In this document: one piece after another, positions 15,010 through 58,893 of the stretch
How the letters are laid out: each line of letters starts with the position of its first letter
Position numbering within the stretch: position 1 is the first letter of the stretch
Translations under genes and position numbers: made by a program
Notes under the pieces: generated by a model
Databases searched by the model: none
Told to the model about the DNA's origin: nothing
What the model saw: only the letters and a program-made list of their open reading frames with translations
Assembly (NCBI GenBank): GCA_030053925.1
Contig: JASGCX010000001.1
Span: 49,883-113,882 of the forward strand
Length of the DNA stretch: 64,000 bases
Direction of reading: 5' to 3'
Origin: Flavobacterium sp.
Lineage (GTDB): Bacteria; Bacteroidota; Bacteroidia; Chitinophagales; Chitinophagaceae

Positions 15010-16484
15010 TAATTGGTTGTTAAAATATTTTTTACAGGTTGTAATAAAGTATCAATATCGCCTGCACCAGCCATTACCACTAGTTCGGGTTTGTTTAGTT
15101 GCATCCATGCCAACAAGGCTTCTTTAGCCAATACTTGTTTGTTAGCCAATGTCATTTTATCCAAAATCAACTTGCTTGTAACGTTGGGCATTGGCAATTC
15201 TCTTGCAGGATAAATTGGCAATATAATTACCTCATCTGCTAGGCTTAAGCTTGCAGCAAATTCATCGGCCAAATGTTTGGTTCTACTAAACAAATGCGGT
15301 TGAAAAACTAGTGTTAACTTTTTATCGGCAAACAAACTTCTTACGCCACTTATCAATGCTTCTAACTCTTTAGGATGATGGGCGTAGTCATCAATTAAAA
15401 TAGATTCATCCGCCGCAAAACCATCCAAATGTGTGGCTTTAGAACCTCCATTTTGAGATGTGCTTGTGTTATTTAAACCTGGTTTTAGTATGTACTCAAA
15501 TCTTCTTTTTACACCTTTAAAATCTGCAACGGCAGCTTTTATCTTTTCGTTATCTATTTTCAAATATTTTGCTACACTAATGGCTGCAATTGCATTTTCA
15601 ATATTGTGTAGCCCACCCATGTGCAACAGCACATTATCAACCGTCCAATATTGGTTCACCACATCAAATTTGTAACTGCCCTTTTCAACTTTTAAGTTAG
15701 TTACATGCACATTGGCAAGGCTATTATTAAAGCTATAAGTGGCATGATTTGGCAGTGTAAATTCACTCGCCCTAGTAAGCCCATACTTTGTAATTAAGCA
15801 ACCACCAGGTTTTACTTTTTGTGAAAACTGAATGAAAGCATTTTCTACTTCTTCGGCCGTACCATAAATATCTAAATGGTCGGCATCCATAGATGTAATA
15901 ATGGCAACATCGGGACTCAATTTTAAAAAACTTCTATCGTACTCATCGGCTTCTACCACCACTACATTGTTGTTGCTGCTCCAAAAATTAGTATTATAGT
16001 TGGCAGCAATACCGCCCAAAAACGCATTGCAACCATAGCCTGAATGTCTTAAAATATGGGCTATCATTGAGGTTGTGGTAGTTTTACCATGCGTACCTGC
16101 AATGCAGATATTAAAAGAACTTTCGCTTATCCATTGCAACACATCGCTACGCTTTACTACAGTATAACCATTGGTTTGATAATACACTAGTTCGGCATGA
16201 TTAGCAGGTATTGCAGGTGTGTACACCACCGCATCTACATCTTTAGGAATGCCACCAACATCTTCGTAATAATGTATAGCAATACCGCTCTCTTCTAATG
16301 CTTTGGTTAATGGTGTTTGCGTTTTATCGTAGCCACTAACCACTACATTTTTCGAATGAAAATATCGGGCCAAAGCACTCATACCTATACCACCAATGCC
16401 AACAAAATAGATAGACCGAATAATGCCCGCTGCCCCTAAAGGTGAGGTTTGAAAATCGCTAATATTTTTAAATTCGTTACTCAT
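15009..16484 (-). CDS. murC: UDP-N-acetylmuramate--L-alanine ligase
   Basis: FVGIGGIGMSALAR, GTHGKTTTTSMI. Confidence 0.95.
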   Translation of the reverse strand: MSNEFKNISDFQTSPLGAAGIIRSIYFVGIGGIGMSALARYFHSKNVVVSGYDKTQTPLTKALEESGIAIHYYEDVGGIPKDVDAVVYTPAIPANHAELVYYQTNGYTVVKRSDVLQWISESSFNICIAGTHGKTTTTSMIAHILRHSGYGCNAFLGGIAANYNTNFWSSNNNVVVVEADEYDRSFLKLSPDVAIITSMDADHLDIYGTAEEVENAFIQFSQKVKPGGCLITKYGLTRASEFTLPNHATYSFNNSLANVHVTNLKVEKGSYKFDVVNQYWTVDNVLLHMGGLHNIENAIAAISVAKYLKIDNEKIKAAVADFKGVKRRFEYILKPGLNNTSTSQNGGSKATHLDGFAADESILIDDYAHHPKELEALISGVRSLFADKKLTLVFQPHLFSRTKHLADEFAASLSLADEVIILPIYPARELPMPNVTSKLILDKMTLANKQVLAKEALLAWMQLNKPELVVMAGAGDIDTLLQPVKNILTTN

Positions 16485-16529
16485 ATTTATGATGCTTATA
16501 CACTTAATGCTGGCTTTTATTATTGTCCT

Positions 16530-17672
16530 TTATGGGCTAGGGTATAAGATTTGTTTAGCAATTACTTCGTCGGCGTTTTTAATAGCCAATGCACTAATAT
16601 TTTGTTGCAACACTTGCTGCACTAATTCGTTTTTACTGAGTTCTAATACCGCATTTATCAACGCTTCATTTACATCGCTGTCTTTTACTAGTAGTGCGGC
16701 TTTCTTGTTTACCAAAGCCATAGCATTAGCGGTTTGATGGTCTTCGGCGGCAAATGGATAAGGTACAAATATGGAAGGCTTTGCAGCCACACACAATTCT
16801 GTTACCGCCATTGCACCTGCCCTACTAATTACTATGTCGGCAGCGGCATAACCCATTTCCATTTGGGTTATAAATTCGCTTACCCAAACATTCGGTTTGC
16901 CATTTGCTAGGGCTTTGTAATATGCAGCATTGGTTTTGCCAGTTTGCCAAATCAACTGCAACCCTTGTTCTGCAAAGGTTTCAATGTGGTTAGCTATGGC
17001 ATCATTAATACTTTTAGCACCTAAGCTACCGCCTACAACCAATACCGTTTTGATATTGTTTTGCAAGCCAAAAAATAACAATGCCTCGGCTTTAGTAACC
17101 TTACTGTGTGCAATATTTGCACGTACAGGATTGCCAGTAACTACAATTTTGTTAGTCGAAAAAAATGGTTCCATACCATCTGTAGCTACAAATATTTTAG
17201 TTGCTTTTTTTGCAAGCATTATATTGGCTTTGCCAGCAAATGAGTTACTCTCGTGAATAAAGGTTGGTATGCCCTTGCTTTGCGCTACACGCAACACAGG
17301 AAAGCTTGAATAGCCACCAACGCCAATAACAGCCGTAGGTTTAAACTGATTGATAATAGTACGTACTTGAAAAAAGCTTTTAATTATTTTAAGTGGTAAA
17401 CCAATATTTTTTATTAAAGAACTTCTATTAAAACCTGCAATTGTTAAGCCTTTAATGGGATAACCAGCTTGCGGTACTTTTTCCATTTCCATTTTACCTT
17501 GTACACCTACAAATAAAATATCAGCATGTGGCTGCAATTGCTTGATAGCATTGGCTATGGCTATGGCAGGAAAAATATGCCCGCCAGTACCGCCGCCTGC
17601 AATAATGATACGCCCCCTTGCCCCACAAGAACTGCTGTGAGACTGTTGTATGTTTTTGTTTAGTACACTCAT
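16530..17672 (-). CDS. murG: UDP-GlcNAc:undecaprenyl-PP-MurNAc-pentapeptide GlcNAc transferase
   Basis: IIIAGGGTGGHIFPAIAIA; VVGGSLGAKSIN. Confidence 0.95.
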   Translation of the reverse strand: MSVLNKNIQQSHSSSCGARGRIIIAGGGTGGHIFPAIAIANAIKQLQPHADILFVGVQGKMEMEKVPQAGYPIKGLTIAGFNRSSLIKNIGLPLKIIKSFFQVRTIINQFKPTAVIGVGGYSSFPVLRVAQSKGIPTFIHESNSFAGKANIMLAKKATKIFVATDGMEPFFSTNKIVVTGNPVRANIAHSKVTKAEALLFFGLQNNIKTVLVVGGSLGAKSINDAIANHIETFAEQGLQLIWQTGKTNAAYYKALANGKPNVWVSEFITQMEMGYAAADIVISRAGAMAVTELCVAAKPSIFVPYPFAAEDHQTANAMALVNKKAALLVKDSDVNEALINAVLELSKNELVQQVLQQNISALAIKNADEVIAKQILYPSP

Positions 17673-17678
17673 TTATAC

Positions 17679-18989
17679 TTAATTTATTGCTTCCCCTTTG
17701 GGGTTAGGTGCTACCGCTTGTGGCTGTAAATAATCTGTTTGTGGTACAGGTTCTTTGCCTTCCATTATCTCTACATTTCGTGCAACGCTTAATATAATAC
17801 CAATAGCTGCGCAAGTAAATAAAAACGAACTACCACCCATACTTACCAATGGTAACGTAACCCCTGTAACAGGCACTAGGCTTACATTTACGGCCATATT
17901 GGCTATTGCCTGAATAACCAATGTAAAGCTTAATGCTAGTGCCAAAAATGCACCAAATGCATAAGGACATTTTCTAAAAACCCTGATGCCTCTAAACAAA
18001 AACACCAAGTAAATTAATATGATAAAGGCTGCACCTAGCAAGCCATATTCTTCTATTATAATTGAATAAATAAAGTCGTTATAGGCTTGTGGTAAAAAGT
18101 TGCGCTGACGACTATTGCCAGGCCCCAAGCCTACCAAAATACCGCCATTTGCAATGGCTATATTAGCCTGCTGCACTTGATAAGGTACTTCTTCGTTTTT
18201 AGCGTACATAAAATCTTGTACACGCTTTACCCAAGTATCAAAACGCTTAAACAACTTACTATTTTCAGTAGTTGATTCTCTTACTAGTTGTTGCTTTTGT
18301 TTACCATTGTGCAACAATACTGCCACACCTATAATAAGCGCAATAGGAATTGCGGCTATACCAACTGTTAGTAAAATATGCTTGGTACTTACCCTGCCAA
18401 TAAACATTAACAACAAGCATGTAGCACCTGTTAATAAAGCGTTTGAGAGGTTTGCGGGCATAATTAAAGCGCAAATAATTGCTACCGGAATTACTACTGG
18501 CAAAAAGCCTTTTTTAAAGTCTTTAATTACCTCTTGCTTTTTACTCAAGGTTCTTGATAGGTACATAAACAAAGCCAACTTTGCAAAGTCGCTCGTTTGA
18601 AACGTCATGTTAATAATAGGTAGTTTTATCCACCTGCTACCTTTATTAATTTCTGTACCAAAGAACAATGTGTATAGCAATAGCGGTATTGCTACTAGAA
18701 AAAACATCCAAGCTACTTTACTGTAAATGGTATAGTTTACACGGTGCATAAAGTAAATTAATGCCAAGCCAATCATCATAAAAGCAACTTGCTTAAACAA
18801 ATACAGTTCATTGTTGCCCTTATTCATTTTATATGCCAAAGAACCAGTGGCACTATACACTACCAACACCGAAATCAACGCCAACAAAATCACTATTGCC
18901 CAAATAAACTTATCGCCACGGGTTCGCAATGCCAGTTGGCTTCGCATCCCTTGCACAGAGGGCATTTGAGAAAATAATGTATCTACCAT
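17679..18989 (-). CDS. ftsW: Lipid II polymerase FtsW (SEDS family)
   Basis: SEDS TM pattern, GLGPGNSRQRNFLPQAYNDFIYSIIIEEYG. Confidence 0.93.
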   Translation of the reverse strand: MVDTLFSQMPSVQGMRSQLALRTRGDKFIWAIVILLALISVLVVYSATGSLAYKMNKGNNELYLFKQVAFMMIGLALIYFMHRVNYTIYSKVAWMFFLVAIPLLLYTLFFGTEINKGSRWIKLPIINMTFQTSDFAKLALFMYLSRTLSKKQEVIKDFKKGFLPVVIPVAIICALIMPANLSNALLTGATCLLLMFIGRVSTKHILLTVGIAAIPIALIIGVAVLLHNGKQKQQLVRESTTENSKLFKRFDTWVKRVQDFMYAKNEEVPYQVQQANIAIANGGILVGLGPGNSRQRNFLPQAYNDFIYSIIIEEYGLLGAAFIILIYLVFLFRGIRVFRKCPYAFGAFLALALSFTLVIQAIANMAVNVSLVPVTGVTLPLVSMGGSSFLFTCAAIGIILSVARNVEIMEGKEPVPQTDYLQPQAVAPNPKGEAIN

Positions 18990-19063
18990 TTTAGGTGTAT
19001 GATTTTAGATCTGTGATGTTTAATTGAGGAAATTAAAAATCCCAAATCAAACATCATAAATGG

Positions 19064-20479
19064 CTATAGTTGTTTTACCGCTTCTTTAAATTGATTACCT
19101 CTGTCTTCATAATTTTCAAACAAATCGAAGCTAGAACAAGCAGGACTTAACAATACTGCATCGCCTTTTGTAGCTACTTTAAAACAAGCTTTTACACAGT
19201 CTTGTGCATTGTGTGTTTCAATAATTGCAGGTACAATGTTTTTAAAGGCAGCAACAATTTTCTTATTGTCTTTACCCATGCACACAATAGCTTTTACTTT
19301 CTCTTTTACAAGGTCGGCAATCAGGCTATAGTTATTGCCTTTATCAAAACCACCAAGTATTAAAATGGTAGTCTTGTTCATGCTTTCCAGTGCAAACCAT
19401 GTGCTGTTTACATTGGTAGATTTACTGTCGTTAATAAACTCTACACCGCGAACCGATGCAACAAATTCATTACGATGTTCTAAGCTTTGAAAGTTGGCAA
19501 CGGCTTTTCTAATTTTCTCTTTTCTAATACCAATTGTAGTTGCTGCAATGCCTGCTGCCATTGTGTTGTAGTTGTTGTGCTTACCTTTTAAGGCAAAATC
19601 GTAAATGCTCATGCTTACGCGTTCTTCTTGTATGCGTAGCATCATTTGATCGCCTTTAATGTAGCCGCCTTTTTTGATTTCGTGTTTCATTGAGAATGGT
19701 AGTGGGTTAGAATGAATGGTTAGTGTATTTAGTTTACTGAGTATTACTTCGTCATCATCGCAATAAATAAAGTAATCGTCTGTCGTTTGATTTTCTATGA
19801 TTCTAAACTTGCTATTGCAATAATTTTGAAACTTGAAATCGTACCTTTCTAAGTGATCTTCTGTGATGTTTAGCAGTATTGCCACATCTGGTTTAAACCT
19901 GTCTATATCATCTAGCTGAAACGAACTTATTTCTGCCACATAATAAGGCTTTGGTTGTTTGGCAACTTGCCTAGCAAACGAGTAACCAATGTTGCCTACC
20001 AATGCTGCATCTAAACCAGCTACAGTACAGATATGATGTATTAAAGCTGTTGTGGTGCTTTTACCATTGCTACCTGTTATTGCAATAATTTTGGCATCGC
20101 CTTTAAACCTATAAGCCAATTCAATTTCGCTTATCACCTTAATACCTTTGGCTCTTATGGCTTTCATCATGTTGTTCATTTCAGGTATGCCAGGGCTTTT
20201 CACAATTTCGTTGGCACCTAGTACTATCTCAGCCGTATGTTGTCCTTCTTCAAATGCAATACCATTGGCTATCATTTCTTGTTTGTAAGCGGGTTTAAGC
20301 ATACCGCCATCGCTCAAAAACACATCGTAGCCTTGCTGCTTACCAAGCAATGCAGCGCCTACACCGCTTTCGCCGCCACCAAGTATTACAAGGCGATGCT
20401 TCTCAATTATACCTCCAACCTCTAAAGGGATGCGTTGAAAACCATTAGTGTTTAAAAATTGTTTACTCATAATTATCAA
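19064..20479 (-). CDS. murD: UDP-N-acetylmuramoyl-L-alanine--D-glutamate ligase
   Basis: VILGGGESGVGAALL, ITGSNGKSTTTALI; start possibly at the internal M (MSKQFLN). Confidence 0.94.
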   Translation of the reverse strand: MIIMSKQFLNTNGFQRIPLEVGGIIEKHRLVILGGGESGVGAALLGKQQGYDVFLSDGGMLKPAYKQEMIANGIAFEEGQHTAEIVLGANEIVKSPGIPEMNNMMKAIRAKGIKVISEIELAYRFKGDAKIIAITGSNGKSTTTALIHHICTVAGLDAALVGNIGYSFARQVAKQPKPYYVAEISSFQLDDIDRFKPDVAILLNITEDHLERYDFKFQNYCNSKFRIIENQTTDDYFIYCDDDEVILSKLNTLTIHSNPLPFSMKHEIKKGGYIKGDQMMLRIQEERVSMSIYDFALKGKHNNYNTMAAGIAATTIGIRKEKIRKAVANFQSLEHRNEFVASVRGVEFINDSKSTNVNSTWFALESMNKTTILILGGFDKGNNYSLIADLVKEKVKAIVCMGKDNKKIVAAFKNIVPAIIETHNAQDCVKACFKVATKGDAVLLSPACSSFDLFENYEDRGNQFKEAVKQL

Positions 20480-27573: not shown

Positions 27574-28800
27574 ATGATTCATCCGAAAAAATTATCAATA
27601 AACAACTTTAGCTACCATTTGCCCGATGAAAAAATTGCGAAGCATCCACTTCCAAAAAGAGACGAAAGCAAGCTTTTGGTGTTTAAAAGTGGGAAAATTT
27701 CAGAAACCCAGTACAAACATTTAGATGCGCATTTACCAGCAGATAGCTTGCTAATTTTTAACAATACCAAAGTAGTTGAAGCAAGGCTCATTTTTACAAA
27801 ACCAACGGGTGGGCAAATAGAAATATTTTGCTTAGAACCACATAAACAATATGCCGATATTACCACTGCTATGCTGCAAAAGGGTAATGTGCTTTGGAAA
27901 TGTTTAGTTGGTGGTGCCAAAAAATGGAAAGAAACATTGCTGACGAAGAAAATAAATGATACCACAACTATTGAAGCCAAGAAAGTAGCTCAATTACCCG
28001 ATTGTTTTATTATAGAACTAAGCTGGAACAATAATGACCTAACATTTGCCGAAATACTGCACATAGCAGGCTTAATACCTTTGCCACCTTACTTAAATAG
28101 AGAAGCCGAAGAAGCAGACAAAAGCACGTATCAAACTATTTATGCCAAACACGATGGTAGCGTAGCTGCACCTACGGCAGGCCTACATTTTACTGAGGAA
28201 TTATTTAAGAAACTGGATGATAAAAACATTGAAAAAGATTTTGTAACGCTACATGTAGGCGCAGGCACTTTTAAACCTGTTAAAGCTGCTACCATGAACG
28301 AACATGATATGCACACAGAATTTATTGATGTGCATATTGAGTTGATTGAACATTTGCTACAACACCATCCTAAACCAATTATTGCAGTAGGTACAACATC
28401 ACTTAGAACTATTGAAAGCTTGTATTGGCTAGGCGTAAAGGTGAATAGTGAATGGTTGATAGCGAATGAAACAACACCAAGCTTATCGCAATGGGATGCT
28501 TATGATTTACCACAAAACATCGCTTTAACAGATGCCTTAACGGCTTTGGTAAATTGGCTGAAAGCCAATAAAATAGAGCGTTTGATTACCAAAACACAAA
28601 TCATTATTGCACCGGGCTATCAATTACAAGTTGCACAAGGCTTGGTTACTAATTTTCATCAGCCACAATCGACCCTGCTGCTGCTAATTGCTTCTATTGT
28701 TGGTGATAATTGGAAGATAATTTACAACCATGCACTTAATAACTTCTATCGCTTTTTAAGCTATGGTGATGGCTGTTTATTAATGAAGGATAAGGTGTGA
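27574..28800 (+). CDS. queA: S-adenosylmethionine:tRNA ribosyltransferase-isomerase
   Basis: SVAAPTAGLHFT, TLHVGAGTFKPV, TNFHQPQSTLLLL. Confidence 0.94.
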   Translation: MIHPKKLSINNFSYHLPDEKIAKHPLPKRDESKLLVFKSGKISETQYKHLDAHLPADSLLIFNNTKVVEARLIFTKPTGGQIEIFCLEPHKQYADITTAMLQKGNVLWKCLVGGAKKWKETLLTKKINDTTTIEAKKVAQLPDCFIIELSWNNNDLTFAEILHIAGLIPLPPYLNREAEEADKSTYQTIYAKHDGSVAAPTAGLHFTEELFKKLDDKNIEKDFVTLHVGAGTFKPVKAATMNEHDMHTEFIDVHIELIEHLLQHHPKPIIAVGTTSLRTIESLYWLGVKVNSEWLIANETTPSLSQWDAYDLPQNIALTDALTALVNWLKANKIERLITKTQIIIAPGYQLQVAQGLVTNFHQPQSTLLLLIASIVGDNWKIIYNHALNNFYRFLSYGDGCLLMKDKV

Positions 28801-29128
28801 AAAGGTGAGACGTGAAATGTGAGACGTGAAATGTGAGAACGTGAAAGGTGAGATGTGAAACGTGAAAGGTGAAAACGTGAAAGGTGAGATGTGAAAGGTG
28901 AAACGTGAAACGTGAGATGTGAAAAGTGAGACGTGAAAAGTGAGACGTGAATGGTGAGAACGTGAAAGGTGAAACGTGAAATGTGAGACGTGAAAAGTGA
29001 GATGTGAATGGTGAGATGTGAATGGTGAGATGTGAATGGTGAGACGTGAATGGTGAGATGTGAAAAGTGTGACGTGAATGGTGAGAACGTGAATGGTGAG
29101 ATGTGAAAGGTGAGATGTGAAAACGAGC
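28797..29128. repeat. Tandem repeat array GTGARAYGTGAAARG starting at the queA stop codon
   Basis: ~330 bp of gtgagacgtgaaatg-type units. Confidence 0.92.
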
Positions 29129-34608: not shown

Positions 34609-37605
34609 TTACAAACCCATTTCTATTTTCAAAAACTTAGCAGTATGGCTCACTTTGTTTTTAACCATTTGTTCTGGCGTGCCTATAAATAATATTTTGC
34701 CCCCACCATCGCCACCTTCTGGGCCAAGGTCTATAATGTGGTCAGCCATTTTTATCACGTCTAAATTGTGTTCAATTATCAGTACAGAATTGCCTCTATC
34801 TACCAATTTATTCACTACATCCATCAGCAATTTAATGTCTTGAAAATGTAAGCCTGTAGTTGGTTCATCTAAAATGTAGAAGGTTTTACCAGTATCTTTT
34901 TTACCAAGTTCGGTACTCAGCTTTACACGCTGCGCCTCGCCACCACTAAGGGTTGTAGCCGATTGGCCAAGTGTTATGTAACCTAAACCAACATCTTGTA
35001 ACACTTTAATTTTTCGGTACATCCACGGCACTGCATGAAAAAATTCTACGGCTTCATCTACCGTCATGTTCAACACATCGCTGATAGATTTTCCCTTGTA
35101 TCGAATTTCTAAAGTTTCGCGGTTGTATCGTTTACCATTACATTTTTCGCAAGGCACATACACGTCTGGCAAAAAGTTCATTTCTATCACTCGCATACCG
35201 CCACCTTCACACACATCGCATCTACCACCTTTTACGTTAAACGAGAAACGGCCTGCATTGTAGCCCCTAATTTTAGCTTCGGGTACGGCTGCAAACATGG
35301 TTCTAATATCTGTGAAAAAGCCACAGTAAGTAGCCGCATTACTACGTGGTGTTCTACCAATAGGGCTTTGATCTATTTCTATCACTTTATCAATGGCTTC
35401 TAAGCCTGTAACGGACGAAAATTTCATTGGCTGTGTGCGGCTATTGTACGCATGTTTCGATAATATTGGGTATAGCGTTTCATTAATTAAGGTAGATTTA
35501 CCACTACCACTTACACCTGTTACCACAATCAATTTTCCCAATGGAAAACTCACACTAACGCCTTTTAAATTATTGCCTTCAACGCCTTTTAATTCAAGGG
35601 TTTTACCATTGCCTGCACGTCTTGTTGTAGGCACCGCTAAACCTTTGGTGCCGTTTAAATACCCTGCTGTTTCGCTACCACTTTTTAGCACTTCTTGCGG
35701 CGTGCCTTGTGCCACAATATTGCCACCAAAGCGGCCAGCTTTGGGACCAATATCTATCAAGTAATCGGCAGCCAACATAATGTCTTTATCGTGCTCTACC
35801 ACTAACACACTGTTGCCTATATCTCTTAAATTTTGTAGCGCAGTAATTAAGCGGTGGTTGTCTCGTTGATGCAAACCAATGCTTGGCTCATCTAAAATGT
35901 AAGTGATGCCTTGTAGTTGACTACCTATTTGCGTAGCCAAACGAATACGCTGACTTTCGCCACCACTCAGTGTACGTGATGGTCTGTTAAGGGTTAAATA
36001 CGTTAACCCTACATCTAACAAAAACTGTAATCGCTCTCTAATTTCTTTCAGAATATCTTTTGCAATAACATTCTGTTTATTATTCAGTCTTGCTTCAAGG
36101 TTTGTAAACCAAACTTGCAGCTTATCTAAATTAAGATTGCCTAACTCAGCTATATTTTTTTCATCAATTTTAAACCACAAACTTTCCCTTCGCAATCTTG
36201 CACCTTCGCAGCTAGGGCAGCGTTTTAGTTCCATGTATTTTTCTGTCCATTCACGCATGGTTTCGGTACTACTTGTACTGCCAAACCAACGTTTTAGCAT
36301 GGGAATAATGCCTTCAAATTCGCCACCGTAAGCATCATGTTCTGGTACATTTTCAAAGTCTAAAATGTCTTCAGCAATACCTTCGGCATTGCCATACAAC
36401 ACCATATTTAAAGCAGCTTGTGGTAGGTCTTTTATTGGCTTATCGATGCTGAATTTATTACGCTTTGCCAATGCTTCTACGCTTTTAAAAATAGATGCTT
36501 CACGCTGTTCGCCCAAGGGTGCAATACCACCTTCTTTAATGCTTTTAAACATGTTTGGCAAAATGGCTTCCATGCTTACGGTGTATACATTGCCAAGCCC
36601 TTTGCAAGTAGGGCAAGCACCATAAGGCGAGTTAAATGAGAAGGCATTTGGTGAAGGTTCTTCGTAGCTAATGCCTGTATCTACACACATTAATTGACGT
36701 GAGTAAAGCATTGCCCCGCCGCCCCCTAAATGGGGAATTTGAGAAGCCGATTCTGTGCTTAAAAATGCTACTTCCTTTATTATTTCTTGCTGTTTACCTT
36801 TCTTAGAATTAGTTGAAACTTGGGGTTTCAAAATCCCCTCTTCGGGGGGTTGGGGGGCTTCATGTGGGGCAACAAACATCAAGTCTTTGCCCATTTTCAA
36901 AGCCTGTTGCACACTTTGGCTCACACGAACTTTCATGTCATCAGTTACGGCTAGCCTATCTATCACCACTTCAATATCGTGAATTTTATAGCGGTCTACC
37001 TGCATGCGTTCTTTTAAATCCATCACCTCACCATCTACACGCACTTTTAAAAAACCCTTCTTGCGTATGTCTTCAAATAACTCTCTGTAATGCCCTTTTC
37101 TACCACGAATCAAAGGTGCCAATATTGATATTTTTTTACCCTTAAATTTCTCAAAAATGTTTTCTACAATTTCTTCTTCACTAAACTTGAGCATCTTTTT
37201 TCCCGTGTTGTAACTATAGGCCTCACCTATTCTTGCGTACAACAAACGCAAAAAGTCGTACACCTCTGTTACAGTGCCTACGGTGCTTCTAGGGTTTTTA
37301 TTAGTGGTTTTTTGTTCAATAGAAATCACGGGGCTTAGGCCTGTAATTTTATCTACATCAGGTCTTTCCATATCGCCCATAAACTGCCTTGCATAAGCAC
37401 TAAAGCTTTCCATGTAACGCCTTTGGCCTTCGTTATAAATAGTGTCAAAAGCCAATGAAGATTTGCCACTACCGCTTACGCCTGTAAAAACAACTAGCTT
37501 ATTTTTAGGAATAGAGATATCGATGTTTTTAAGATTGTGCTCTTTTGCACCAAATACTTCTATAAACTCGCTAATAATATTGTTATCGTTGATATTAACT
37601 TTCAT
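34609..37605 (-). CDS. uvrA: Excinuclease ABC subunit A, with an atypical internal insertion
   Basis: GVSGSGKSSLAFDT, LSGGESQRIRLATQIG, CDVCEGGG zinc finger. Confidence 0.96.
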   Translation of the reverse strand: MKVNINDNNIISEFIEVFGAKEHNLKNIDISIPKNKLVVFTGVSGSGKSSLAFDTIYNEGQRRYMESFSAYARQFMGDMERPDVDKITGLSPVISIEQKTTNKNPRSTVGTVTEVYDFLRLLYARIGEAYSYNTGKKMLKFSEEEIVENIFEKFKGKKISILAPLIRGRKGHYRELFEDIRKKGFLKVRVDGEVMDLKERMQVDRYKIHDIEVVIDRLAVTDDMKVRVSQSVQQALKMGKDLMFVAPHEAPQPPEEGILKPQVSTNSKKGKQQEIIKEVAFLSTESASQIPHLGGGGAMLYSRQLMCVDTGISYEEPSPNAFSFNSPYGACPTCKGLGNVYTVSMEAILPNMFKSIKEGGIAPLGEQREASIFKSVEALAKRNKFSIDKPIKDLPQAALNMVLYGNAEGIAEDILDFENVPEHDAYGGEFEGIIPMLKRWFGSTSSTETMREWTEKYMELKRCPSCEGARLRRESLWFKIDEKNIAELGNLNLDKLQVWFTNLEARLNNKQNVIAKDILKEIRERLQFLLDVGLTYLTLNRPSRTLSGGESQRIRLATQIGSQLQGITYILDEPSIGLHQRDNHRLITALQNLRDIGNSVLVVEHDKDIMLAADYLIDIGPKAGRFGGNIVAQGTPQEVLKSGSETAGYLNGTKGLAVPTTRRAGNGKTLELKGVEGNNLKGVSVSFPLGKLIVVTGVSGSGKSTLINETLYPILSKHAYNSRTQPMKFSSVTGLEAIDKVIEIDQSPIGRTPRSNAATYCGFFTDIRTMFAAVPEAKIRGYNAGRFSFNVKGGRCDVCEGGGMRVIEMNFLPDVYVPCEKCNGKRYNRETLEIRYKGKSISDVLNMTVDEAVEFFHAVPWMYRKIKVLQDVGLGYITLGQSATTLSGGEAQRVKLSTELGKKDTGKTFYILDEPTTGLHFQDIKLLMDVVNKLVDRGNSVLIIEHNLDVIKMADHIIDLGPEGGDGGGKILFIGTPEQMVKNKVSHTAKFLKIEMGL
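36712..36862 (-). repeat. Inverted pair of G/C-rich palindromic elements in frame inside uvrA
   Basis: ccccgccgccccctaaatggggaatttgagaagcc and ggggtttcaaaatcccctcttcggggggttggggggcttc. Confidence 0.8.
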
Positions 37606-45744: not shown

Positions 45745-48465
45745 TTACAACAACCCTTTCACCACATCTATCACTTTATCTAAATTACTTGCATCTGTGC
45801 CACCGGCTGTTGCCAAAGTTTTTTGGCCACCACCACCACCTTTAATAATTGGTGTGATGTGTTCTTTAATCACTTTTGGTGCTTCAATACCTTTTGCAAC
45901 TAAGGCTTCGCCCACAGCAATAGCTACCGATGCTTTACCGCCAATATTTGCAGCCAACACAACGACCCCCCCGCCCCCCAAAGGGGGGAATGAAGCCACT
46001 AATTCGCCAGCTAGCTTTTTCAGACCATCAGCATTACTAAGGTCTAATACCGCACCTATAAATGAGTGACCATTTACAGTTTCAACTTGGGTTAATAAGT
46101 CAGCTTTTATGGCTACTAATTGTTTCGCTTCAAGGCTTTCAATTTTCTTCTTCAACTCTTTATTATCTGCTACCGAATTTTCAATCACACGCAGCAATTC
46201 TTTGGGGTTATTGAACAAGGCTTTAATGGCTTCTATGGTACTAAATGCCTCCTCAATATGTGCAGCCGCTGCATTACCACTTATCGCTTCTATCCTACGT
46301 ACACCAGCAGCTACGGCACTTTCGCTTTTAATTTTAAAATATCCAAGCTCGCCTGTGTAGCCTACATGCGTACCACCACACAACTCAATTGAATAGTTTG
46401 GGTCCATCATTACCACACGCACTACATCACCATATTTTTCGCCAAACAAAGCCATTGCGCCTAAAGCCACGGCTTCATCTTTGCTCATTTCTTTAATTAC
46501 CACAGGTAAGTTTTCACGTATCTTTTGGTTTACAATGGCTTCTATTTGTGCTATTTCGTTGTTGGTTACTTTGCTAAAATGCGAGAAGTCGAAACGCAAT
46601 TGCAAATTGTTTACCAAGCTACCTTTTTGTGCCACATGTGTGCCCAATACTTGGCGCAAAGCAGCGTGCAACAAGTGCGTAGCCGAGTGATTAGAAGAGG
46701 TATCTTGACGCATGGTTGCATCAACCGTAGCTATTACTTCAGCAGCCATATCAATATCTGCTGGTAATACTTCGGTAAAATGAATAATCAAGTTGTTTTC
46801 CTTCTTTGTGTCAATAATTATTAATTGTTCATTATTAATTATTAATTGCCCCTTATCACCTACTTGCCCACCACTTTCTGCATAAAAAGGTGTTTCTGCC
46901 AATACAATTTGGTAGCCTTCTTTGCCCTTGGCTTTTACTTTACGGTATTTTACTACCTGCGTTTTGGTTTCAAGGCTATCATACCCTACAAAACTTGAAG
47001 CAACATCGTTAACCGTTACCCAATCTTCTGTATCTACTATAGAAGCGGCACGAGAACGATTTTTTTGTTGTTGCAATGCTTCTTCAAAGCCAGCTTCATC
47101 AATTTTTATTCCTGCCTCAGCGGCTATCAACCTTGTTAAATCAATAGGAAATCCATAGGTGTCAAATAATTCAAACGCAGCATTGCCTTTAATTTCATTT
47201 TCAGAATTTAAAGTTGCATTTATAACATGCGTGTCAATTAGTTTCAACCCTTTTTCCAACGTCCTTAAAAACCCTTCTTCTTCTTCCTTTGTAACTCTAG
47301 TTACAAAATCTAATTGAGCCTGCAATTCGGGAAAAACCTGTTCAAATTGCTTTGCTAGCAAAGGCATTAATTGAAACAACAATGGTTGCTTATAATCTAA
47401 ATACGAGTAGTAATAACGTACTGCTCGGCGTAAAATTCTGCGTATCACATAGCCTGCGCCATTGTTACTTGGCAATTGTCCATCTGCAATGGTAAACGCA
47501 ATGGTGCGTATATGATCTGCCAAAACACGAAAAGCCACAGCTCCCCTGCCCGCCAAAAGCGGGTTCTCAGAAGCAGTTTCTAGTGCTTGCAGTTGCGAGT
47601 AAGACTTACCAACAATTTTTTCAATCGCTTCAATGGTGGGTATAAATACATCTGTATCATAATTGCTTTGCTTGCCTTGTATCACACGTACCAAACGTTC
47701 AAAGCCCATACCTGTATCTACGTGGTTAGCTGGTAAAGGTTGCAGGCTTCCGTCTTTTAAACGGTTGTACTGCATAAATACATTGTTCCAAATTTCAATT
47801 ACTTGTGGGTGATCTTTATTTACCAGGTCACGCCCTTTCACCAATGCTCTTTCAGCATCGCTACGCATATCTACATGTATTTCGCTACATGGGCCACATG
47901 GGCCGGTATCGCCCATTTCCCAAAAATTATCCTTCTTATTGCCGTACACAATATGGTCTTCAGCTATCAGTTTTTTCCACTCACGTAATGCAATATCGCT
48001 TGGTGGCAAACCTTCTTTTTCATCACCTTCAAACACAGTAACATACAATCTGCTCTTATCTAGCTTGTACACTTCAGTTAATAATTCCCAGCTCCAAGCA
48101 ATGGCTTCGGCTTTAAAATAATTTCCAAAACTCCAGTTGCCAAGCATCTCAAACATGGTGTGGTGATAGGTATCTACACCCACTTCTTCAAGGTCGTTGT
48201 GCTTACCACTTACACGCAGGCATTTTTGTGTATCGGCCACACGAGGAAACTCGGGTACACGATTACCCAAAAAATAATCTTTAAATTGGTTCATACCTGC
48301 ATTGGTAAACAATAAGGTAGGATCGTTTTTAATAACAATAGGCGCAGAAGGCACAATTTGGTGGCCTTTAGACTTAAAAAAATCTAAAAACTGTTGGCGT
48401 ATTTCGCTAGAAGTAGGAAAGTTTTTTTGCGATTCTGTTGGCTCTATTTGCTGGTTAGTTGACAT
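45745..48465 (-). CDS. alaS: Alanyl-tRNA synthetase, with several atypical insertions
   Basis: FTNAGMNQFKDYFLG, DTGMGFERL, SATHLLHAALRQVLG, ELCGGTHV. Confidence 0.96.
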   Translation of the reverse strand: MSTNQQIEPTESQKNFPTSSEIRQQFLDFFKSKGHQIVPSAPIVIKNDPTLLFTNAGMNQFKDYFLGNRVPEFPRVADTQKCLRVSGKHNDLEEVGVDTYHHTMFEMLGNWSFGNYFKAEAIAWSWELLTEVYKLDKSRLYVTVFEGDEKEGLPPSDIALREWKKLIAEDHIVYGNKKDNFWEMGDTGPCGPCSEIHVDMRSDAERALVKGRDLVNKDHPQVIEIWNNVFMQYNRLKDGSLQPLPANHVDTGMGFERLVRVIQGKQSNYDTDVFIPTIEAIEKIVGKSYSQLQALETASENPLLAGRGAVAFRVLADHIRTIAFTIADGQLPSNNGAGYVIRRILRRAVRYYYSYLDYKQPLLFQLMPLLAKQFEQVFPELQAQLDFVTRVTKEEEEGFLRTLEKGLKLIDTHVINATLNSENEIKGNAAFELFDTYGFPIDLTRLIAAEAGIKIDEAGFEEALQQQKNRSRAASIVDTEDWVTVNDVASSFVGYDSLETKTQVVKYRKVKAKGKEGYQIVLAETPFYAESGGQVGDKGQLIINNEQLIIIDTKKENNLIIHFTEVLPADIDMAAEVIATVDATMRQDTSSNHSATHLLHAALRQVLGTHVAQKGSLVNNLQLRFDFSHFSKVTNNEIAQIEAIVNQKIRENLPVVIKEMSKDEAVALGAMALFGEKYGDVVRVVMMDPNYSIELCGGTHVGYTGELGYFKIKSESAVAAGVRRIEAISGNAAAAHIEEAFSTIEAIKALFNNPKELLRVIENSVADNKELKKKIESLEAKQLVAIKADLLTQVETVNGHSFIGAVLDLSNADGLKKLAGELVASFPPLGGGGVVVLAANIGGKASVAIAVGEALVAKGIEAPKVIKEHITPIIKGGGGGQKTLATAGGTDASNLDKVIDVVKGLL
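45965..45997 (-). repeat. G/C-rich palindromic element in frame inside alaS (copy a)
   Basis: ggcttcattccccccttt-ggggggcgggggggtc (minus strand). Confidence 0.75.
47539..47575 (-). repeat. G/C-rich palindromic element in frame inside alaS (copy b, divergent)
   Basis: gcttctgagaacccgcttttggcgggcaggggagc (minus strand). Confidence 0.6.
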
Positions 48466-52881: not shown

Positions 52882-53133
52882 TTAAGCTTCTTCTGCACCT
52901 TCTACAAGTACAGTTGCTTTGTTGTTAAGCATTTCTACAAAACCGCCTTTAATATTGTAGTGCTGAAAAGTAGATTTATCTTTAAAAATTTTTACTTTAC
53001 CTTGTTTTAAGGCACTTACAATAGGTGCGTGCTTGTCTAAAATTTCAAACAACCCATCTACGCCTGGCAATTGAATACCATAAACGCTGCCACTATATAA
53101 TTTTTTTTCTGGTGTTAATATTTCTAAAGTCAT
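52882..53133 (-). CDS. atpC: F0F1 ATP synthase subunit epsilon
   Basis: MTLEILTPEKKLYSGSVYGIQLPGVDGLFEILDKHAPIVSALKQG. Confidence 0.92.
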   Translation of the reverse strand: MTLEILTPEKKLYSGSVYGIQLPGVDGLFEILDKHAPIVSALKQGKVKIFKDKSTFQHYNIKGGFVEMLNNKATVLVEGAEEA

Positions 53134-53142
53134 AATACCAAT

Positions 53143-53382
53143 GTGATGGTGTGATAATGTGATAATGTGATAATGTGATAATGTGATGATGTGATGATGT
53201 GATAATGTGATGATGTGATAATGTGATAATGTGATGATGTGATGATGTGATAATGTGATGATGTGATAATGTGATAATGTGATAATGTGATAATGTGATA
53301 ATGTGATAATGTGATGATGTGATAATGTGATGATGTGATAATGTGATGATGTGATAATGTGATAATGTACTAATGCGATAAT
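53143..53382. repeat. Perfect-register 8-bp tandem array, ~30 units of GTGATAAT/GTGATGAT, between atpD and atpC
   Basis: Read directly; units differ almost only at one A/G position. Confidence 0.95.
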
Positions 53383-53429
53383 TCAATTTATGGTCATTAG
53401 CACATCAGCAAATTAACTAATTAGTTAAT

Positions 53430-55765: not shown

Positions 55766-57076
55766 ATGAGGTATTTTGCCACCGTTATTTGCACCCTATT
55801 TTTAGCTTCAATTGTATTGGCGCAGCCAAAAAAAATTACCCATAAACCTAGTGCTACGGCTATTTTACCAGCAAAAAATATTTTGCCAGCGGCCAATGCA
55901 ATGCACCAATATTTGCCACTACTAAAAGGTAAGCGTGTAGGCATTTTTGCCAATCATACTGCAACCGTAGGCGATACACATTTAGTAGATACGTTGCAAA
56001 AACTTGGTATTACCATTACCAAAGCCTTTGGCCCAGAACATGGTTTTAGAGGCACAGCCGATGCAGGGCAAAAAGTAGATAACTACATAGATTCTGCCAC
56101 TAACATTCCTGTTATTTCTTTATACGGCAAAAAACGCAAGCCCACAGCACTAGACCTTGCAGATGTAGATGTGATGTTGTTTGATATTCAAGATGTGGGT
56201 ACACGCTTTTACACCTTTATTTCTTCGCTACAAGAATTTATAGAAAGTGCTATTGAATTTAACAAGCCACTAATTATTTTGGACCGACCAAACCCCAATG
56301 GTTTTTATGTAGATGGTCCTGTGCTTGATTCTAGTTATAAAAGTTTTGTAGGCATGCAACCAATACCTACCGTGTACGGTATGACAATGGGTGAATATGC
56401 CAAAATGCTGATAGGCGAGCAAATGCTAGATTGGAAATACATTCGCAAGCAAGACCACATTAATTCTTTAGGAGAAATTCTTGGCTTTGAAGAAGGGCGA
56501 ACTAATTTTAGCCTTACAGTAATTACTTGTAAAAATTACACCCATAAAAGCAAGTACAATTTACCTGTAAAACCTTCGCCTAATTTACCAGACATGGCTA
56601 GTATTTATTGGTACGCAAGCACCTGCCTATTTGAAGGCACCATACTTAGCGAAGGTAGAGGTACAGAACATCCGTTTTGCCTATTTGGCCACCCAAACTT
56701 GCCCGATACATTATTTAGCTTTACACCAATGCCTACCGCAGGTGCAAGTAGCCCCAAATTAAACGGCAGTAAATGTTACGGCTGGAATTTGTACGGCACT
56801 AATGAGCAAGTATTACACCAAGTAAACAATCAAATTCAGTTGAAGTATGTACTAGATGCTTATCGCTTATTTACTGCCAAAGACAGCTTTTTTTTACAAC
56901 CAAAAAGTAAAAAATCTACCGACTATTTCTTTAACAAATTAGCAGGCAATAGTGAGTTAATGGCGCAAATAAAAGCTGGCAAATCAGAAGCTGAAATTAG
57001 AAAAAGCTGGCAACCTAAATTACAAGCCTTCAAAAAAATTAGAAAGAAGTATTTGTTGTACCCCGATTTTGAGTAA
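55766..57076 (+). CDS. DUF1343 / NamZ-like exo-beta-N-acetylmuramidase family protein
   Basis: KRVGIFANHTATVGDTHLVDTL, FGPEHGFRGTADAG, DVDVMLFDIQDVGTRFYTFI. Confidence 0.9.
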   Translation: MRYFATVICTLFLASIVLAQPKKITHKPSATAILPAKNILPAANAMHQYLPLLKGKRVGIFANHTATVGDTHLVDTLQKLGITITKAFGPEHGFRGTADAGQKVDNYIDSATNIPVISLYGKKRKPTALDLADVDVMLFDIQDVGTRFYTFISSLQEFIESAIEFNKPLIILDRPNPNGFYVDGPVLDSSYKSFVGMQPIPTVYGMTMGEYAKMLIGEQMLDWKYIRKQDHINSLGEILGFEEGRTNFSLTVITCKNYTHKSKYNLPVKPSPNLPDMASIYWYASTCLFEGTILSEGRGTEHPFCLFGHPNLPDTLFSFTPMPTAGASSPKLNGSKCYGWNLYGTNEQVLHQVNNQIQLKYVLDAYRLFTAKDSFFLQPKSKKSTDYFFNKLAGNSELMAQIKAGKSEAEIRKSWQPKLQAFKKIRKKYLLYPDFE

Positions 57077-57080
57077 AGAA

Positions 57081-57235
57081 GTGAATGGGCGATAGTTGAT
57101 AGTTGATGGTTGATAGTTGATGGTTGATAGTTGATAGTTGATAGTTGATAGTCGATAGTCGATGGTCGATGGTTGATGGTCGATAGTTGATAGTTGATAG
57201 TCGATGGTTGATAGTTGATGGTTAATGGTCTATGG
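57081..57235. repeat. Tandem repeat GATAGTTGATGGTT / GATAGTCGATGG
   Basis: Visible repetition after the DUF1343 gene. Confidence 0.92.
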
Positions 57236-57251
57236 TCTATGACGGTTTGCG

Positions 57252-57455
57252 AATTTTCACTTTTCACTTCTCACTTTTCACCTTTCACCTTTCACTTTTC
57301 ACTTCTCACTTTTCACCTTTCACTTCTCACCTTTCACTTTTCACCTTTCACGTTTTCACCTTTCACGTTTTCACCTTTCACCTTTCACCTTTCACATTCT
57401 CACCTTTCACCTTTCACCTTTCACGTTTTCACCTTTCACGTTTTCACCTTTCACT
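57252..57455. repeat. Tandem repeat TTTCACCTTTCACTTTTCACC (GTGAAAGGTGAAA on minus strand) ending at the sdaA stop codon
   Basis: Visible repetition. Confidence 0.92.
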
Positions 57456-57456
57456 T

Positions 57457-58893
57457 TTAACACTCACTCAATCCAACAGATATATTTATTGCCAAGCCGC
57501 CATCAGAGGTTTCTTTGTATTTACTGTTCATGTCTAGTGCTGTTTCCCACATGGTTTTTATCACTTTGTCTAAACTTACTCTTGCGTAGTCGGGCATACT
57601 TTGCAACGCCAATTGCGATGCAGTAATAGCCTTAATTGCGCCCATGGTGTTGCGTTCTATACAAGGCACTTGCACCAAGCCACCAATGGGGTCGCAGGTT
57701 AAACCTAAATGATGTTCCATGGCTATTTCGGCAGCCATTAATGCTTGTTTTTGCGTACCACCAAGGCTTTCGGTTAATGCAGCCGCAGCCATGGCAGACG
57801 ATACACCAATTTCGGCCTGACAACCACCCATTGCTGCCGAAATAGTTGCGCCTTTTTTAAAGATACTTCCCACCTCGGAAGCGGTTAATAAAAACTTGAT
57901 AATCTTTTCTTCGCTATTACCATCGCAGAAGGCAATAAAATACAACAATACAGCCGGTATTACACCCGCAGCACCATTAGTAGGTGCAGTAACTACCCTA
58001 CCAAAACTGGCATTTTCTTCATTTACCGCTAGGGCAAAACAACTCACCCAATCTAATACATTTTTAAAGCCTTGGCCACTTTGTTTAATCACCATCAACC
58101 AATCTTGGTAATTAGCATAATCACCCAAATTGGCCGTTAATTTTTTGTTTAAAGCATAAGCCCTACGTTGCACTTGCAAGCCACCAGGTAATTCGCCTTG
58201 TGTATGGCAGCCTCTATAAATGCAATCTTGCATGGTGTGCCATATTTGCAATACCCCATTTTTTGTTTCACGCTCGCTGCGCCAAGCATATTCGTTTTCC
58301 ATTACTACCTCACTTATGCTTAAACCTTTCATGCACCAATGCAGTAAATCGTCTGATGTATTAATGGGAAAAGGCAGGTCTACACTTTGTTTGCTATTGG
58401 CTGTTTCGCCTTCCATTACCACAAAGCCACCACCAATTGAATAGTATGTTTGGCTAAATTGATGACCATTTGTAAGCGTTATTAAAAATGTTAAACCATT
58501 AGGGTGAAATGGCAAAGCTTCGTTGTATAAAAACTGAACGTGGGTACTTGGGTTAAACAAAATTATTACTTCGCCACCAAGTAGCAATTGCTTAGAAGCA
58601 TTGATATGATTGAGTTTTGGCGTAATGCTATTTACATCTATGGTTACAGGATCTTCGTTGCACAAGCCTAAAATAGTTGCAACATCTGTACCGTGGCCTT
58701 TACCTGTTTTAGCTAGCGAACCATACAGCAATACCGTTACACTTGCAACAGCATTTATTCCAAATTCTGCCTTTATACTATTCACACAGCGCATAGCAGC
58801 CCGCCATGGGCCAAGTGTGTGCGAACTACTAGGCCCAACGCCTATTTTAAACATATCAAATACAGAAATGGCTTCGTGTGGCATGTGTAACAA
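57457..58893 (-). CDS. sdaA: L-serine ammonia-lyase
   Basis: [56 protein letters not shown]. Confidence 0.94.

Follow-up and report, generated by a model that had tools for sequence, protein, structure and literature searches.

In-frame palindromic repeats in conserved genes of a Flavobacterium genome and their association with DUF559, a predicted nuclease domain

A 64,000-nucleotide (nt) stretch of Flavobacterium sp. DNA (assembly GCA_030053925.1, contig JASGCX010000001.1, positions 49,883 to 113,882 of the forward strand; here called the window) contains copies of a short palindromic repeat in genes of the division and cell wall (dcw) cluster as well as in uvrA and alaS. The repeat belongs to a family with about 90 copies in this 3.9-Mb genome of the Bacteroidota; copies lie in frame in conserved genes whose orthologues lack them, they form inverted pairs, and in two proteins of the genome they flank a DUF559 domain. 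The nearest named MurC loci place the host most likely in the Chitinophagaceae. Probably, the small copies belong to a mobile palindromic element whose in-frame insertions are translated together with the host protein, and the element itself would be an in-frame, non-splicing, homing-like nuclease element.

The element is a palindrome of 37 nt, AATCCCCCTTTRGGGGG-NN-GGGGGCT. An alignment of 34 copies reads AAAAT-CCCCCC-TTT-GGGGGG-NN-GGGGG-CT, so that a hairpin precedes a further block of G, the foot. When up to three mismatches were allowed, the pattern CCCCTTTAGGGGNNNNGGGG matched the genome at 157 positions, compared with 5 for the reversed pattern used as a control, and a covariance model built from the 34 copies (R1) recovered about 93 copies at an E value below 1. 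After removal of tandem copies, 83 remained, of which 47 were located in coding sequence, 25 were intergenic, and 11 immediately preceded a start codon. Both strands carry copies, inside genes that are unrelated to one another as well as in intergenic DNA, and the sites vary between sister species. A search of Rfam with loci carrying element pairs gave no match above any curated threshold. The window was scanned with R1 with filters switched off; the segments of interest are listed below in window coordinates, and the R1 scores given include those of copies used for building the model.

15408..15461, minus strand: internal insert of MurC (TSQNGG...), private to this genome, no R1 match
16420..16456, minus strand: element copy at the N terminus of MurC (DFQTSPLGAAGI), 27.9 bits
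16525..16542, plus strand, end of murG: probable remnant of an antisense arm (CCCTAGCCCATAAAGGAC as read on the minus strand), identified by reading the sequence
17613..17645, minus strand: decayed element copy at the N terminus of MurG (QSHSSSCGARG), below R1 detection
17681..17716, plus strand: antisense element copy at the C terminus of FtsW (APNPKGEA), 17.5 bits, shared with the nearest relative, G001
20406..20442, minus strand: element copy in the N-terminal extension of MurD (GFQRIPLEVGGI), 22.2 bits
20487..20506, plus strand, between mraY and murD: possible remnant of an antisense arm, identified by reading the sequence alone, no R1 score
36710..36746, minus strand: sense arm of the UvrA insert (ASQIPHLGGGGAM), 34.9 bits
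36747..36824, minus strand: spacer between the inverted arms of the UvrA insert, the whole insert being missing from solved UvrA, G001, and G004
36825..36861, plus strand: antisense arm of the UvrA insert (EAPQPPEEGILK), 35.7 bits
45962..45998, minus strand: element copy in the C-terminal part of alanyl-tRNA synthetase (AlaRS) (ASFPPLGGGGVVV), 33.6 bits
47537..47573, minus strand: second element copy in AlaRS (SENPLLAGRGAVAF), 18.8 bits

A preliminary description of this DNA had proposed one family of peptides, added at protein termini and loops across the dcw cluster, in UvrA, and in AlaRS, with the reading frame always the same. The sequences it quoted lie at, or a few bases off, the positions it gave, the searches described above show the family to be enriched genome-wide, and its assignments of the MurC and MurD N termini and of the UvrA and AlaRS segments were borne out by R1. 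At the MurC site, other members of the genus carry different element-like inserts, some with two copies, and MurC N termini are short in most other Bacteroidota compared. The MurD extension, about 23 residues including the copy, is new relative to other genera, whose MurD proteins (up to 76% identity) begin with MNHRLVILG or a similar sequence and lack it. The N terminus of MurG, also named as a member, escapes detection by R1 in this genome, but it can be assigned as a decayed copy because the orthologous site of G001 still holds a recognizable one (18.3 bits, CACCCCTTATGGGGCGGGGGGGCG). The C-terminal segment of FtsW is a real copy as well; however, its orientation is opposite, and it therefore lies outside the shared frame. 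Two further segments have to be removed from the proposed family. Specifically, the N terminus of FtsW (FSQMPSVQGMR) gave no R1 match and is ordinary protein sequence conserved in the genus members for which this terminus was recovered, and the internal segment of MurC, although indeed an addition of 23 amino acids missing from every other MurC sequence compared, gave no element signal with R1, so that its membership is not demonstrable. Two antisense arm remnants are assigned with low confidence. The one at the end of murG is probable; it contains the TAA stop of the gene and has no R1 score, and in other members of the genus R1 does score antisense copies at this end of the gene. The one between mraY and murD is possible.

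The UvrA insert consists of two inverted copies and a spacer, all in frame, so that residues 246 to 293 stand for 2 residues of solved UvrA. The spacer measures 78 nt between the model matches in this genome and is shorter in G011, G010, and G006, and G095, a member of another genus, has an element pair in the same loop. A single arm is clear in G002 (28.1 bits) and weak in G007 (10.1 bits), and the loop is empty in G001 and G004. This series would fit either the gradual shortening of what is left of a single insertion or several insertions into a loop that tolerates them. Of the AlaRS copies, the one at 45962..45998 is private to this genome, with an in-frame length difference of 18 nt relative to G001, and the one at 47537..47573 is shared with G001 only (27.3 bits), being absent from the other genus members covering the site. 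Empty sites in orthologues of uvrA, alaS, and murD agree with the earlier view of the peptides as additions and, together with the genome-wide distribution, with that of a single family adding them in frame. In the stretch syntenic with G001 (34.6 to 55.7 kb of the window, partly alignable), elements explain two or three of the four length differences of at least 6 nt at coding sites.

Both proteins show variation of other kinds. At a second variable site of AlaRS, after FLRTLxxGL, species-specific inserts of 20 to 100 amino acids occur without the element (L172, which is alaS of G011, and L171, L173, L174, and L175). The insert of about 100 amino acids in G011 was considered as another nuclease, which was rejected since it had no Pfam match and no meaningful match in the Protein Data Bank (PDB). 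In several members of the genus (L157, L160, L161, and L164), the matched region of the second UvrA paralogue (47 to 48% identical) contains a single in-frame stop; these stops differ between the members and could reflect decay, frame breaks, or an insert.

The 47 coding copies of the genome show a strong bias of orientation, with 39 in sense and 8 in antisense (P = 6e-6). Within the sense copies, 34 of 39 are read in one codon phase, which gives the peptide (S)xxPPLGGRGA (P = 5e-12); the preliminary description had put its copies always in one frame. The dominance of one phase is explained in part by variants of the type TTTA...TAG, which hold stop codons in the other two phases. Avoidance of stops is nevertheless insufficient as the whole cause, as 17 of the 21 copies without a stop in any of the three phases are still in the dominant phase (P = 1e-5). 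Three of the remaining copies (IPPFGGEGA twice and SQTPSFGGGGA) have a one-base change in the loop and keep the outer frame. The residual bias could reflect selection at the level of the peptide. N-terminal copies begin at codons 2 to 16, with a median of about 8, and 21 of the 39 sense copies are internal to their gene. Judged by the open frames, the copies are predicted to be expressed as part of the host protein.

Copies are also arranged in a nonrandom manner relative to one another, a feature that the preliminary description did not contain, just as it lacked the second copies of UvrA and AlaRS and the link to DUF559. Among neighbors at most 150 nt apart in this genome, 13 pairs have the orientation (-,+) and none the orientation (+,-); in six other genera, neighbors at most 250 nt apart gave 14 and 0, respectively, among the matches listed. 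Neighboring copies on the same strand are mostly tandem repeats. One compact pair folds into a long hairpin of -44 kcal/mol (z = -7); single arms fold no better than shuffled sequence. The pairs often bracket a gene junction, with the antisense arm ending the upstream gene and the sense arm beginning the downstream gene, as seen for ftsW-murG and thrA-thrB and less clearly, by eye, for murG-murC and mraY-murD. A REPIN-like pair with a conserved spacer was considered and rejected, as the spacers are unlike and the similarity of the arms is marginal. At one locus (L118:958-2262), a single protein combines chorismate synthase with a DUF952 domain, and an antisense copy lies between the two parts; an element may here have joined two genes.

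Pfam searches of the copy-bearing genes of this genome identified DUF559 (PF04480) in methionyl-tRNA synthetase (MetRS; residues 280 to 386) and in adenine deaminase (residues 411 to 516), in both cases flanked by element copies. In MetRS, the arms are located at residues 246 to 258 and 394 to 406, and the resulting insert of inverted arm, DUF559, and arm comprises about 156 codons that are open in the frame of the host. Residues 248 to 403 stand for 3 residues of solved MetRS (1rqg), and both host halves lie in one open frame. No splicing domain was seen in the MetRS insert, which consists of DUF559 and short arms, unlike an intein with a self-splicing domain around its nuclease, and no intein family was among the Pfam matches of the DUF559 host proteins. 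DUF559 is present in 80 of 150 genomes of the family, and 43 of the 70 DUF559 loci inspected are situated in frames of at least 350 amino acids. The host proteins are of at least 10 kinds, including LeuRS, MetRS, chorismate synthase, MetH-type homocysteine methyltransferase and B12 activation domains, CinA, Lhr helicase, HsdR, adenine deaminase, a MeaB/B12 protein, and an M23 peptidase. One MetRS site (WGxxxP ... GKVLYVWFDAPIGY) is occupied alike in this genome (G000), G037, and G142; LeuRS, MetH, and chorismate synthase are each occupied repeatedly in different genomes. Such recurrence may also reflect vertical inheritance. Inverted arms (score of at least 13) surround DUF559 at 53% of the 70 loci, compared with 1.1% and 4% in controls; they have the foot-linker-hairpin layout in common, and their sequences often differ. 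E, D, ExD, and H residues are invariant in the 70 domains, and comparison with the PDB yielded an endonuclease-like protein (3hrl, E = 1.8e-22) and, weakly, a mobile-intron protein (3r3p, E = 0.0084). DUF559 is thus a predicted nuclease of the Vsr-like/EDxHD homing-nuclease fold group; its placement in the EDxHD family is tentative, the match to 3r3p being weak. The predicted nuclease fold with its conserved catalytic residues and the recurrent occupancy of one conserved site are both features of homing nucleases.

Some hosts carry more than one insert. GIY-YIG and DUF559 matches were found together in an HsdR protein and two DUF559 domains in a LeuRS protein (L318, from G064, and L322, from G137), which makes these proteins hosts of several nuclease inserts; an overlapping-type MTES_1575 match lies elsewhere in the LeuRS with two DUF559 domains.

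Among the 150 family genomes, surveyed for DUF559 and Y1_Tnp and compared as drafts, DUF559 was present in 38 of 41 element-rich genomes and in 42 of 109 others (odds ratio of 20, P = 7e-10, rho = 0.55, phylogeny being ignored). On the reading we favor, the full-length form would be an inverted arm, the DUF559 nuclease, and a second arm, unspliced and in the host frame. DUF559 would cut unoccupied or arm-like target DNA, repair would copy the element in by a homing-like process, and the arms would be the possible binding or cutting structure of the enzyme. Nuclease-less copies, derived from or driven by the nuclease form, would persist either as two arms in (-,+) orientation, as in UvrA, or as one arm, as in AlaRS, MurC, MurD, and MurG. 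At a junction, a pair would extend the upstream protein by an antisense tail peptide and supply the downstream protein with a sense peptide at its N terminus. We propose that one phase is dominant because the other phases contain stops in most variants and disruptive insertions are purged. It is conceivable, if a more tentative proposition, that such elements form a class distinct from introns, inteins, and insertion sequences, in which DUF559 between palindromic arms enters essential genes in frame, by homing or transposition, and is retained there as a translated domain that brings its own linkers; the nuclease-less offspring of such elements may have seeded extra peptides and new N termini in core enzymes of Chitinophagaceae-like bacteria.

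Several observations weigh against this proposal. Neither movement nor nuclease activity has been observed, and since sister genomes differ by about 10 to 15% in DNA, the junctions are blurred and no target duplication is defined. The spacers of the pairs are unrelated to one another, no DUF559 remnant was identified in those of this genome, and the two arms of one pair are only marginally more similar than chance (P = 0.03). The association with DUF559 is uncorrected for phylogeny; three element-rich genomes, two of them in this genus, have no detectable DUF559; and arm sequences differ between subfamilies. Part of this evidence would suit an alternative order of events, in which the arms, as selfish or structural repeats, came first and DUF559 later invaded existing (-,+) pairs by recognizing them: copies far exceed DUF559 genes (about 90 and 2 in this genome), the pair spacers are unrelated, and the arms around DUF559 differ between subfamilies. 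Yet the whole arm-DUF559-arm block is an insert relative to solved MetRS, and arms flank DUF559 in many unrelated hosts, which makes this order unlikely.

The hairpin-plus-foot shape and the inverted pairs are also reminiscent of repetitive extragenic palindromes (REPs) and their paired form, REPINs, which would make the element one mobilized by a REP-associated tyrosine transposase (RAYT, Y1 or TnpA_REP type) with DUF559 as a passenger. In keeping with this idea, Y1_Tnp counts correlate positively with elements, although weakly (rho = 0.30, compared with 0.55 for DUF559), and one truncated RAYT-like gene of this genome has an element copy just downstream. However, 6 of the 41 element-rich genomes have no Y1_Tnp match, among them the single-contig G154, and all six have DUF559. 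Moreover, no element copy was found within 1.5 kb of any full-length Y1 gene in the genus, where other inverted repeats accompany at least some of the RAYT-like genes. A RAYT/Y1 transposase was therefore rejected as the driver in the genus and the 150 family genomes, and we regard this explanation as rather improbable.

Maintenance of the copies for a function in RNA or DNA, e.g., as hairpins insulating starts or ending transcripts, with coding as a side effect, would account for the strong hairpin of the compact pair, the position of N-terminal copies close to the start codon, and the bracketing of gene junctions. It is very unlikely, given that more than half of the sense coding copies are internal, that sites vary between sister species, and that single arms fold like shuffled sequence. 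Ordinary protein homology or convergent glycine/proline-rich linkers hold true for the FtsW N terminus, conserved across the genus, but are scarcely credible as a general explanation and are refuted for the R1-positive copies by the excess of matches over the control, their presence in unrelated genes and intergenic regions on both strands, and orthologues without copies.

The element has features in common with several known systems. Intragenic REPs and Rickettsia palindromic elements (RPEs) are likewise short palindromes inserted without loss of frame into housekeeping genes, among them uvrA and tRNA synthetase genes; some of the insertions are N-terminal and some are dimers (PMC3733652), and the element described here resembles RPEs in being an in-frame palindromic repeat of conserved genes that is missing from their orthologues. 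It differs from them in sequence, and no GTAG or CGTC tag is established for it; its consensus end is GGGGGCT, and a TAG-like end is found in some copies only. It differs further in that its copies flank in-frame DUF559 nuclease genes, of which the passages of that source (PMC3733652) make no mention. REPINs are inverted pairs of hairpin-forming repeats (PMC3116915), and double-foot REPs and a Bacteroidetes-dominated tnpA_REP subclass have been described (PMC6006769). The element shares with REPINs the hairpin-forming repeat in inverted pairs (13 to 0 and 14 to 0). Unlike REPINs with their RAYTs, it is not mainly extragenic (47 of 83 copies in coding sequence), it is abundant in genomes without Y1_Tnp, and no RAYT gene flanked by the repeat was found in the relatives, only the truncated gene of this genome having a copy.

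Among nucleases, DUF559 is distantly similar to the EDxHD/Vsr-like homing endonucleases (I-Bth0305I type, 3r3p), with matching D, ExD, and H residues, and it recurs at one conserved MetRS site in several genera; in contrast to these enzymes, it lies in no intron or intein but, flanked by palindromic arms, in the host frame. Phage methylases can contain the ShiLan domain, a stop-free, non-splicing insertion carrying a homing nuclease (PMC11855218). The DUF559 insert is similar in being a stop-free insertion in a host gene that carries a nuclease without any splicing signature, but the nuclease of ShiLan is of the HNH type and read out of frame, whereas DUF559 follows the frame of its host, lies between palindromic arms, and is accompanied by short relatives dispersed through the genome. 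Finally, short nuclease-less copies with inverted ends beside longer protein-carrying copies recall miniature inverted-repeat transposable elements; here, however, no transposase was identified, no target duplication was shown, and the short copies have no interior in common. In the open-licence literature, we found no description linking DUF559 to palindromic repeats. If the proposal is true, it would provide a candidate engine for in-frame palindromic repeats, the origin of which is an open question, and a testable function for a domain of unknown function. It would also account for stray domains and peptides in tRNA synthetases, UvrA, MurC/D/G, and further core enzymes that are annotated as family variation, and it would reveal a selfish element that endures in essential proteins without splicing and serves as a source of new N termini, linkers, and domain insertions in protein evolution.

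Several repeat arrays were noted in addition. Units of about 113 nt, with one element copy each, were noted at L019/L140 (G000:C125:1-800) and L100:1244-1440; they form an array and are also located 3′ of a truncated RAYT-like gene, where the unit replaces the C terminus of the gene. In the window, a degenerate tandem repeat of 7/14 nt (GTGAAAGGTGAATG-like) forms three intergenic arrays, at 6-283, 28437-29125, and 57066-57476, and related units are found at distant places as well. An array of an 8-nt tandem repeat (TGTGATAA/TGTGATGA) spans positions 53085-53428, where the sequence of G001 is about 140 nt shorter.

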